The notes beneath the pieces are model-generated. The model was not told the origin of the DNA. It did not search any database and saw nothing but the letters and a program-made list of their open reading frames with translations. The position numbers and the translations under genes are program-made. Of a stretch of DNA of 64,000 nucleotides, positions 10,544-12,734 are shown piece after piece. The DNA is taken from contig NZ_LGDV01000096.1 in the NCBI RefSeq assembly GCF_001280015.1, positions 1 to 64,000 on the forward strand, read 5' to 3'. Source of the stretch: Streptomyces sp. MMG1121. Its GTDB lineage: Bacteria > Actinomycetota > Actinomycetes > Streptomycetales > Streptomycetaceae. Within the stretch, counting starts at the first letter, position 1, and the number at the start of each line of letters is the position of its first letter.

Positions 10544-10801
10544 TCAGACGCGCCCCCGGCACAGCTCCAGCAGGGTCATGGCGAGGGAGGTGCCGGGCTT
10601 GCCGAGGGCCTCGCGGTAGCGGCCGAGGATGTCCATCTCGCGGGACAGGTGCACACGCCGCCCGCCGGAGGCGATGCGGGTCTGCTGCACGACGGCGGAG
10701 ACGGCCATCCGTTCCTGGATGAGACCGATGATCCGGTCGTCGAGCACATCGATGCGCTGCCGGGCGTCGGCGATGGTCTCTTCCGCGGAGGTGGTGGTCA
10801 T
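10544..10801 (-). CDS. Chorismate mutase, AroQ-type
   Basis: 85 residues, an all-helical AroQ-fold chorismate mutase that converts chorismate to prephenate, the entry to Phe and Tyr synthesis. The family pattern is clear: an N-terminal helix with RQRIDVLDDRIIGLIQERM (first conserved Arg, then Asp-Arg-x-Ile) , a central R-ASGGRRVHLSREMDI segment supplying the Arg/Lys and Glu side chains, and a third helix. It is monofunctional, with no prephenate dehydratase or DAHP synthase part. It sits behind a leader peptide rich in Phe/Tyr codons and a terminator hairpin, so its expression is probably set by attenuation. Confidence 0.9.
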   Translation of the reverse strand: MTTTSAEETIADARQRIDVLDDRIIGLIQERMAVSAVVQQTRIASGGRRVHLSREMDILGRYREALGKPGTSLAMTLLELCRGRV

Positions 10802-10878
10802 GTCGGGGCTCCTGACGAAGGTGGCTGGGGCGGTGGACCGACTGAGGTGCCCCGAACCGACAGACCCCGGAAAACGTC

Positions 10879-10911
10879 AGGCGCCCCGGGCCTTGTCGGC
10901 CCGGGGCGCCT
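10879..10911 (-). terminator. Attenuator terminator upstream of chorismate mutase
   Basis: aggcgccccgggcc (10879-10892 on the plus strand) pairs perfectly over 14 bp with 10898-10911, with a 5-base loop. On the minus strand it is followed by gacgtttt. It lies between the leader peptide and the chorismate mutase, the position expected for a transcription attenuator. Confidence 0.8.
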
Positions 10912-10933
10912 GGGAAGTCGCTCGGCGTTTCGC

Positions 10934-11005
10934 TCAAGCAGCACGACCATGGCATCCGGCGGGCCGGTTGCCATAGGTAAAGAGGAAGATCGAGTGCGCG
11001 AGCAT
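10934..11005 (-). CDS. Phe/Tyr leader peptide of the chorismate mutase attenuator
   Basis: A 23-codon frame beginning [13 protein letters not shown], with Phe at codons 7 and 9 and Tyr at codon 11, and ending at TGA (10934). The MxAHS opening is, from memory, the same as that of the trp leader peptides of streptomycetes, in which Trp codons replace the Phe/Tyr codons. Directly after the regulatory codons a hairpin forms (ggcaaccggcccgccggatgcc region, plus 10951-10972), then the terminator. The product is presumably only a sensor of charged tRNA-Phe and tRNA-Tyr. There is no ribosome-binding site; the message appears to be leaderless. Confidence 0.8.
10951..10972 (-). promoter_or_regulatory. 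Leader hairpin and antiterminator segment
   Basis: On the minus strand ggca-a-ccgg pairs with ccgg-a-tgcc around a cccg loop. The sequence cggcccg in it is complementary over 7 bases to cgggccg in the 5' arm and loop of the downstream terminator, so the two structures can be mutually exclusive, as attenuation needs. Confidence 0.55.
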
Positions 11006-11011
11006 GCGGCA

Positions 11012-11020
11012 AGTATGCCA
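11012..11020 (-). promoter_or_regulatory. Extended -10 promoter of the chorismate mutase leader
   Basis: On the minus strand tgg is followed by catact, an extended -10 element, with six bases to the A of the leader-peptide ATG. This places transcription start at the ATG itself. No good -35 box is visible. Confidence 0.5.
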
Positions 11021-11153: not shown

Positions 11154-12734
11154 GTGTCATCAGCGACTCCCGCTGCCGCCGCCCCCGACACCGTCCTGGT
11201 CGTCGACTTCGGCGCGCAGTACGCCCAGCTCATCGCCCGTCGCGTCCGCGAGGCGCGGGTCTACAGCGAGATCGTGCCGAGCACCATGCCGGTCCAGGAG
11301 ATGCTCGCCAAGAACCCCGCGGCGATCATCCTCTCCGGTGGCCCCTCGTCCGTGTACGAGGAGGGCGCCCCCCACCTCGACAGCGCGATCTTCGAGGCCG
11401 GCGTCCCCGTCTTCGGCATGTGCTACGGCTTCCAGCTGATGGCGCGAGCCCTCGGCGGCACCGTCGACAACACCGGCGCCCGCGAGTACGGCCGTACCGA
11501 CCTGCACGTCTCCAGGACGTCCTCCACCCTCTTCGAGGGCACCCCGGCCGAGCAGCACGTGTGGATGTCGCACGGCGACGCCTGCTCCGCCGCCCCCGAG
11601 GGCTTCACGGTCACCGCGTCCACGGACGTCGTCCCGGTCGCCGCCTTCGAGAACGACGCGAAGAAGCTCTACGGCGTCCAGTACCACCCCGAGGTCATGC
11701 ACTCCGCGTACGGCCAGCAGGTGCTGGAGCACTTCCTGTACCGCGGCGCGGGCCTGACCCCGTCCTGGACCACCGGCAACGTGATCGACGAACAGGTCGC
11801 CGCGATCCGCGAGCAGGTCGGCGACAGGCGCGCGATCTGCGGCCTGTCCGGCGGCGTGGACTCCGCCGTCGCCGCCGCCCTCGTCCAGAAGGCCATCGGC
11901 TCCCAGCTGACCTGCGTCTACGTCGACCACGGCCTGATGCGCAAGGGCGAGACCGAGCAGGTCGAGAAGGACTTCGTGGCCTCGACCGGCGTCAAGCTGG
12001 TCGTCGTCGACGCCGAGGAGCGCTTCCTCACCGCGCTGAAGGGTGTCTCCGACCCCGAGGAGAAGCGGAAGATCATCGGCCGCGAGTTCATCCGCGTCTT
12101 CGAGCAGGCGCAGGCCGAGATCATCGCGGACGAGGGCCCGGCGGTCGAGTTCCTGGTCCAGGGCACCCTGTACCCGGACGTGGTCGAGTCCGGCGGCGGC
12201 ACCGGCACGGCGAACATCAAGTCGCACCACAACGTCGGCGGCCTCCCCGAGGACCTCGAGTTCCAGCTGATCGAGCCGCTGCGCAAGCTGTTCAAGGACG
12301 AGGTCCGCATGGTCGGCCAGGAGCTGGGCCTGCCGGACGAGATCGTCCAGCGCCAGCCCTTCCCGGGCCCCGGCCTCGGCATCCGCATCGTCGGCGAGGT
12401 CACCAAGGAGCGTCTGGACCTGCTCCGCGACGCCGACGCCATCGCCCGCGAGGAACTGACCGTGGCCGGCCTGGACCGCGACATCTGGCAGTGCCCGGTG
12501 GTCCTGCTCGCGGACGTCCGCTCGGTCGGCGTCCAGGGCGACGGCCGCACCTACGGCCACCCGATCGTCCTGCGCCCGGTCTCCTCCGAGGACGCCATGA
12601 CCGCCGACTGGTCCCGGCTGCCGTACGACGTCCTCGCGAAGATCTCGACCCGGATCACGAACGAGGTCCGGGACGTCAACCGCGTCGTCCTCGACGTGAC
12701 CTCGAAGCCCCCGGGCACCATCGAGTGGGAGTGA
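11154..12734 (+). CDS. guaA: GMP synthase (glutamine-hydrolysing)
   Basis: 526 residues. Catalyses the last step of GMP synthesis: XMP + ATP + glutamine to GMP. The N-terminal class I glutamine amidotransferase has the nucleophile in GMCYG (C90) and the His/Glu pair in QYHPEV (H178, E180). The ATP pyrophosphatase domain has the PP-loop SGGVDSA beginning near residue 232, and the C-terminal dimerisation domain ends in the conserved KPPGTIEWE. The start GTG at 11154 follows ggaagg and gives the usual length; the frame is open further upstream, into the chorismate mutase leader, but that extension is not protein-like. The gene is divergent from the chorismate mutase, so promoters lie back to back in 11006-11150. 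The stop is only 14 bases from the stop of the next, convergent gene. Confidence 0.97.

Follow-up and report, generated by a model that had tools for sequence, protein, structure and literature searches.

A predicted leaderless Phe/Tyr leader and terminator in front of the chorismate mutase gene of Streptomyces and related families

The stretch of Streptomyces sp. MMG1121 DNA that was analysed as a whole, i.e., 64,000 nucleotides, called the window here, carries an element in front of a chorismate mutase (CM) gene. The element is very probably a leaderless, ribosome-mediated transcription attenuator of CM. It is near certain that its leader and its terminator are real. The candidate promoter box, the conserved frame with its codons, the hairpin, the terminator, the complementarity between regions 2 and 3 and the conservation across genera were read by sequence comparison.

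Leader, Promoter and Target Gene

An unannotated open reading frame (ORF) of 23 codons was found in front of CM at 11005..10934 on the minus strand. It has Phe codons at positions 7 (TTC) and 9 (TTT) and a Tyr codon at position 11 (TAT), as the first-pass annotation had described. The control codons TTT ACC TAT, i.e., Phe9, Thr10, and Tyr11, are placed at 10973..10981 (minus). The opening MxAHS, noted for the leader peptides of streptomycete trp genes, was found in 6 of 80 loci plus the window, and MLTHP, MRKHS, and MLQHA are common; with so variable an N-terminus, homology by way of an MxAHS start was rejected.

A −10 promoter hexamer, CATACT, is located at 11017..11012 (minus) and ends 6 nt upstream of the leader ATG; the frame had been noted as leaderless-looking. 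The transcript is predicted to be leaderless, with its 5' end at the A of the leader ATG. CATACT was present upstream of 92 of 116 leaders, the window being counted among the 116. The distance from the −10 box to the leader ATG was 6 nt in 82 loci, 7 nt in 32 and 5 nt in 2. All 116 were within 5–7 nt, where the box was counted by the loose definition xAxxxT at five offsets, and random flank positions matched this definition in 231 of 2320 cases. The placement is consistent with the leaderless promoters of S. lividans, since these show TAnnnT at a mean distance of 6.3 nt (PMC8079986). The spacer between terminator and CM is 76 nt long in the window and contains zero TA dinucleotides. In 115 of 116 loci, the interval from terminator to CM match lacks TAnnnT, and a transcription start downstream of the terminator is therefore unlikely.

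The target is a monofunctional CM of AroQ type with 85 aa at 10544..10801 (minus), its ATG at 10801, and the claim of a CM gene downstream of the leader was thereby confirmed. NF005894 (1.5e-33) and TIGR01808 both matched above their cut-offs, and PF01817 was also matched. By NF005894 and TIGR01808 the predicted enzyme falls in the AroQ-delta class. A C-terminal Arg-Gly dyad is described for this class (PMC4281200), and it was read, without alignment, from the end LCRGRV. The closest CM among the matches listed is from Streptomyces sp. and is 90% identical. CM is the first enzyme exclusive to Phe and Tyr synthesis. In M. tuberculosis, binding to DAHP synthase activates the AroQ-delta mutase (PMC4281200), so control of CM could also set the flux through the pathway. 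The divergent neighbour guaA (GMP synthase; 11157..12734, plus; NF000848, 6.9e-236) is given as context only.

The leader region of the window folds 4.7 sd better than its shuffles, and 0 of 200 shuffles were equally stable. In the whole genome, the string TTTASCTATGGC was found just once, at the CM leader. In Rfam release 15, the leader matched none of the families at the gathering score. When six relatives were searched to E 1, the sole match near the leader was CrfA, on the opposite strand of L001, with 27 bits against a gathering score of 38. Elsewhere in the window, a c-di-AMP riboswitch (RF00379; 24352-24454, minus; 52.9 bits) was its only Rfam match at the gathering score.

Conservation in Streptomyces and Its Family

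The best 80 of 480 Streptomyces CM loci were taken as the Streptomyces set, and the leader was found in 80/80, i.e., 79 by motif and L051 by reading (MQHRTRFFGYGTRPGRLPYEALRTA). In the 80 rows made of 79 Streptomyces loci and the window, TTT was kept in 79 and TAT in 80. In 30 long ORFs of the window, 4 of 319 Phe codons are TTT, and 29 of 277 Tyr codons are TAT. Why GC-rich genomes keep TTT, the rarest Phe codon, is a question that the leader raises directly. A Phe or Tyr codon two positions ahead of TTT was kept in 77 of the 80 Streptomyces rows, but the wider family kept it in only 25 of its 37 rows. Mean ungapped identity (800 sampled pairs among the 79 loci and the window) was 0.94 in the core, 0.79 in the N-terminal part of the leader, 0.69 in the −10 region, 0.69 in the terminator arm and 0.32 in both flanks. 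The C-terminal part of the leader is strongly conserved within Streptomyces. Variants were seen in L051, L055, L070, L072, and L085, with an F-F-G-Y-G core, early stops, or a stop shifted by one codon with the helix partner retained.

The wider sample consisted of 40 CM upstream regions from 17 genera of the window's family, f1, which is presumably Streptomycetaceae. The leader was present in 38/40 loci and in 16 of the 17 sampled genera. The register TTT-x-TAT was found in 37 of 40 upstreams, 36 of these with Tyr, and in the family rows TTT was kept in 36/37 and TAT in 36/37. In L094, TTC and Gln stand in place of TTT and Tyr, and in L088 the Tyr codon is changed to His with Phe retained. These two loci are natural tests of Tyr sensing. 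The leader was absent at L100 and L119, two distant CM genes of genus g14. Trp four codons past the Tyr codon (GTGW), downstream of the stall sites, was seen in 15 of 37 f1 rows outside the Streptomyces set.

A covariance model, R1, was built on 41 sequences. One strong match each was obtained in 105 of 150 family genomes (67.8–137.9 bits; next match 38.0 bits), of which 36 had supplied model sequences and 69 had not. Each of the 105 strong matches shares its strand with CM and lies 41–331 nt upstream of it. Five genomes (G036, G077, G087, G096, and G143) had a CM match without a strong R1 match, all of them g14 with distant CM copies. Some other R1 matches were set aside: L180 and L181 look like plain terminators, and at L174–L179 of family f17 it is another RNA that scores with R1. 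This f17 RNA is conserved, about 140 nt long and has a GC-rich terminator, with no aromatic leader ORF in it.

An alignment across streptomycetes had been proposed as a check, and in it the leader codons and stems were retained wherever a close CM gene is present within the family. The reverse case, i.e., the gene kept with leader codons or stems lost, did not occur within the presumed Streptomycetaceae. A chance ORF over an ordinary terminator of a divergent promoter region is a far-fetched explanation for such a pattern. It is true that GC-rich DNA gives many ORFs and hairpins, and that random synonymous leaders pair equally well. Against this stand the presence of the leader in all the Streptomyces loci and nearly all the family loci, the core identity of 94% against 32% in the flanks, rare codons that are nearly invariant, and strong R1 matches that lie solely ahead of CM within the family. 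The original observation therefore holds beyond chance.

RNA Structure

Hairpin 1:2 (CUAUGGCA.CCGG / CCGG.UGCCAUGG) is located at 10976..10947 (minus). It begins on the Tyr codon and lies inside the ORF. Its 3' arm, region 2 (10947..10959, minus), can pair with region 1 or with region 3. Region 3, i.e., CCAGGCGCCCCGG at 10901..10913 (minus), serves as the 5' arm of the terminator and as the 3' side of the candidate antiterminator. The intrinsic terminator 3:4 occupies 10912..10878 (minus) and has a perfect stem, a 5-nt loop and then ACGTTTT. A perfect stem before CM had been predicted correctly, and its length was corrected from 14 to 15 bp. The stem is mismatch-free, with G-U allowed, in 109 of 116 loci, and changes on both sides were found at 6 of 13 stem pairs in 41 sequences. 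For the whole structure, the observed measures were reached by 0 of 500 shuffles.

The antiterminator had been thought to use CGGCCCG. Its complementarity to CGGGCCG exists, but RNAalifold on 37 sequences and the stall folds both choose the hairpin 3' arm CCGGnUGCCAUGG with the terminator 5' arm. The CGGCCCG pairing was therefore rejected, and CCGGnUGCCAUGG paired with CCAGGCGCCCCGG is the better-supported antiterminator. A predicted apical helix of this antiterminator is formed by GCUUG (10939..10935) with CGAGC (10924..10920), i.e., 10920..10939 on the minus strand, and its 5' strand is made of the last sense codon and two bases of the stop codon. The helix covaries: 95 of 117 rows have an exact Watson-Crick partner, compared with 117 of 1287 tests in which partners were swapped. 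The window, with one G-U pair, is counted among the 22 misses. The variants include GCUUG:CAAGC, GUCUG:CAGAC, GCCUG:CAGGC, GCUUA:UAAGC, GUGUG:CACAC, and GCAUG:CAUGC. The helix is not a full proof of the antiterminator, because it could also form alone, besides capping it.

The core 2:3 pairs had zero compensatory changes among the 41 sequences. Such constancy would follow if region 2 has to pair with two partners, and it remains a gap in the evidence. No selection for pairing was seen in a synonymous-codon null, for which each of 115 leaders was recoded at random 200 times (mean z, +0.40 for 2:3 and −0.56 for 1:2). Since synonymous versions pair equally well, codon choice gives no support, and it was dropped as a proof of RNA pairing. 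A swap control of 2:3 pairing was run on 139 of 147 rows, with 7 of 13 rows usable in f16; the eight rows left out (L093, L127, L134, L136, L138, L153, L154, and L155) had no terminator-pattern match. The own partner was stronger than those of other families in f1 (116 rows), f16 (7), f32 (2), f30 (1), and f41 (1), and was not stronger in f4 (9 rows), f14 (2), and f12 (1). Transcription attenuation is therefore best supported in f1, f16, f32, f30, and f41.

These results also bear on another explanation, in which the leader is translated and control is translational or Rho-dependent, with the ribosome position altering the CM ribosome-binding site or the access of Rho and the hairpin being a mere stability element. 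Streptomyces terminators often have no long U tract, and the U tract here is short. The failure of the swap test in f4 and the mycobacterial Cys leaders without a clear terminator (PMC1262725) point in the same direction. Set against these are a terminator stem that is nearly always free of mismatches and covaries, and the stems with five or six U at the ends of four DAHP synthase leaders of f14 and f15 (L189, L190, L203, and L205). The median distance from terminator to CM match start is 100 nt, so masking of the binding site by the terminator stem is unlikely. On balance, translational or Rho-dependent control is improbable, and transcription attenuation is preferred.

Stalling Model and Proposed Mechanism

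Ribosome stalling was modelled in 116 loci by folds that cover the RNA up to the terminator 5' arm. When the A site was placed at TTT or TAT, 113/116 loci formed 2:3 with 7 or more pairs and 0/116 formed 1:2. With the stall two codons earlier, 2:3 was formed in 95 and 1:2 in 22, and four codons earlier 2:3 was still formed in 74/116 and 1:2 in 43/116. The model favours TTT and TAT as stall sites, although its preference for them is not sharp. Once the ribosome has reached the stop codon, it covers one third or more of the region 2 pairing bases in 113 of 116 loci, and 787 of 1390 bases overall.

In the proposed mechanism, transcription would start at the leader ATG, and translation of the leader by a ribosome would follow immediately. 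With ample charged tRNA-Phe, and probably charged tRNA-Tyr as well, the ribosome would reach the stop codon and cover much of region 2. The terminator would then form, and transcription would end ahead of CM. If charged Phe or Tyr tRNA is scarce, the ribosome would stall at TTT or TAT and cover region 1, so that region 2 would pair with region 3 and CM would be transcribed. In a leader that stays untranslated, hairpin 1:2 and the terminator would form. The start site, the translation, the stalling, the read-through and the amino acids sensed are the steps that we infer. The idea of the first-pass annotation that CM is controlled by stalling at Phe/Tyr codons is supported by the leader and stems kept in the family and by the modelled stalls. 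In S. coelicolor, ilvB and leuA leaders that carried mutations did not behave as expected for classical attenuation (PMC1262725), which counts against the attenuator reading.

Leaders before CM in Other Families

Outside f1, a Phe-Tyr leader was found in 30 of 40 CM upstreams, from seven families, i.e., f4, f12, f14, f16, f30, f32, and f41. The cores read RFFYGYR, FYGGR, FYYG, FFYG, FFYAL, RFYP, and HFYQ. Short local folds mostly place the start of the hairpin at the Tyr codon or within a few bases downstream, and the stems vary across families (GGC/GCC, GGG/CCC, GCC/GGC). The leader was absent in 10 of the 40. Eight of these (L125, L129, L132, L139, and L149–L152) are f4 loci from genera other than g20, so the leader is not universal. 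Of the remaining two, L135 is a second CM copy and L130 has an upstream of only 155 nt.

The comparison across families is informative about an arrest peptide, in which the nascent chain would halt the ribosome and codon identity would be less important. The strongly conserved C-terminal part in Streptomyces would suit such a peptide. However, this part encodes region 2 and differs among families (RSAVPVV, ARSPLCR, SPAAVGRA), whereas the aromatic codons and the hairpin position are constant, and an arrest peptide is very unlikely.

Within the attenuator, Tyr sensing is the weakest step, and it is held with moderate confidence. A leader sensing Phe only, with TAT kept as the foot of hairpin 1:2 and little effect of Tyr starvation, is a possible reading of the same data, albeit the less probable one. 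The TAT bases do pair in hairpin 1:2. Tyr sensing is made uncertain by L088 and L094, which lost Tyr and kept Phe, and by the Phe-Tyr-Phe leader of C. glutamicum aroF, which is reported as Phe-responsive and Tyr-unresponsive (PMC11802643). On the other side, Tyr was in the core of 30/30 accepted CM leaders outside f1 though the stem sequence and the Tyr codon (TAT/TAC) vary, in a search that wanted neighbouring Phe/Tyr and would miss a Phe-only leader with one aromatic codon. In addition, CM supplies both the Phe and the Tyr pathways.

Leaders before DAHP Synthase Genes

Twelve R1 matches in family f15 (L162–L173) precede genes for type I DAHP synthase, an enzyme that opens the aromatic pathway as a whole. 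Four of these targets were confirmed against NCBIfam, and all twelve sites were matched by a DAHP synthase search. The leaders read MQRNFWRFYGYRP.. or MRTAFWFWYGDGP.. and similar. Aromatic leaders were also accepted in 22 of 40 DAHP synthase upstreams (L182–L221; L183 and L184 partial), and several of the 15 displayed DAHP synthase leaders have GC-rich stems with U runs after them. DAHP synthase leaders with Phe, Trp, and Tyr codons come from several actinobacterial families. Outside the 34 leaders counted below, aromatic leaders were also present in six further f15 upstreams (L236–L241) and absent from two f14 upstreams (L234 and L235).

All leaders were chosen by eye among ORFs with neighbouring aromatic residues, with Trp neither required nor excluded, and the codon sets were counted in the densest 8-residue window of each leader. 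Of the 34 accepted DAHP synthase leaders, 33 combined Phe, Trp, and Tyr; 12 of the 34 came by way of model R1 and are biased towards CM-like leaders. The same set was found in 5 of 149 CM leaders, i.e., 4/119 in f1 and 1/30 elsewhere, and any Trp in 6 of 149. The Fisher value of 4e-29 (33 and 1 vs 6 and 143, where 6 means Trp in any form) is descriptive only, because the rows are related. ORFs in L186, L187, L188, L191, L193, and L220 fit the pattern and were not accepted as leaders. Among them L193 (MRRTWRFWPN.., no Tyr) is doubtful, and with it the count is 33/35.

Three genomes, i.e., G218 (L121/L200), G160 (L137/L188), and G227 (L131/L234), had a CM leader and none accepted at type I DAHP synthase. 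Twelve upstreams of type II DAHP synthase, from genomes in the window's genus or order, yielded no convincing leader. Short ORFs with adjacent aromatic residues do occur in three of them (L224, L231, and L233) and were put down to chance. Among those 12 genomes the CM leader was checked in G000 and G009 only; both are of the window's genus and have CM with a leader and DAHP synthase without one.

The codon sets suggest that the choice of sensor codons is matched to the end products of the step under control, i.e., Phe and Tyr at CM, and Phe, Trp, and Tyr at type I DAHP synthase. We lean slightly towards one old actinobacterial family of aromatic leaders that moved between targets, with the sensor codons re-set to the end products each time. 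If true, the inputs of a regulator would be seen rewritten to match metabolism, with Trp codons added when the target serves all three aromatics, and the supply of two or three amino acids would be read out together by one stalled ribosome.

Comparison with Known Systems

A literature search, with subscription papers outside its reach, found no leader described before an actinobacterial chorismate mutase. The actinobacterial survey of Seliverstov et al. (2005), a comparative search before amino-acid genes, reported elements in the metabolism of Trp, Cys, and Leu, together with T-boxes upstream of ileS, and states that conserved structures were not found before other amino-acid pathways (PMC1262725). 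An RNA-seq-based list for S. lividans TK24 contains eight streptomycete amino-acid leaders, i.e., alaL, ilvL, thrL, trpL1, trpL2, leuL1, leuL2, and metL, with none for chorismate mutase among the eight (PMC8079986). The element is very probably an attenuator of a known mechanism type at a site for which none was found described, conserved through f1 and met in seven more families. If the reading is right, it explains the control of the Phe/Tyr branch in Streptomyces and many relatives, a branch for which the S. lividans list shows no leader (PMC8079986). It is also relevant to strain engineering, because aromatic precursors feed many antibiotics.

The pheA gene of E. coli encodes a bifunctional mutase-dehydratase. 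In its leader, pheL, a ribosome-binding site is combined with consecutive Phe codons, and no Tyr codon is known there. Phe codons of this leader govern a chorismate mutase gene through a choice of terminator or antiterminator, and the CM leader is proposed to act likewise (pheL-pheA is named in PMC11802643). Unlike pheL, the CM leader is predicted to start leaderless, has two or three control codons, with both Phe and Tyr, and precedes a monofunctional AroQ gene.

The aroR-aroF system of C. glutamicum is similar in having an actinobacterial leader with Phe-Tyr-Phe, placed ahead of a DAHP synthase gene (PMC11802643, PMC4046766). It differs in its target, DAHP synthase, and in being reported as responsive to Phe only (PMC11802643, PMC4046766).

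The comparison with trp attenuation made in the first-pass annotation is a real one. TrpL1 of S. lividans reads MFAHSTRNWWWTAHPAAH (PMC8079986), and the trpL-trpE attenuator of S. venezuelae was experimentally studied (PMC1262725). The same genome as the window carries, at L242 1480-1630, a Trp leader, MFALSNQNWWWTASPAAR, and a terminator ahead of a TrpE-like gene, divergent from a type II DAHP synthase gene; this gene is cut by the locus end, and TrpE models were below their cut-offs. Streptomyces trpL-trpE and the CM element share a leaderless ATG, which is predicted for CM, a short leader, a hairpin, a GC-rich terminator and a biosynthetic gene downstream. They differ in that trpL has Trp codons and another target, and the likeness is one of layout, by which homology is not implied.
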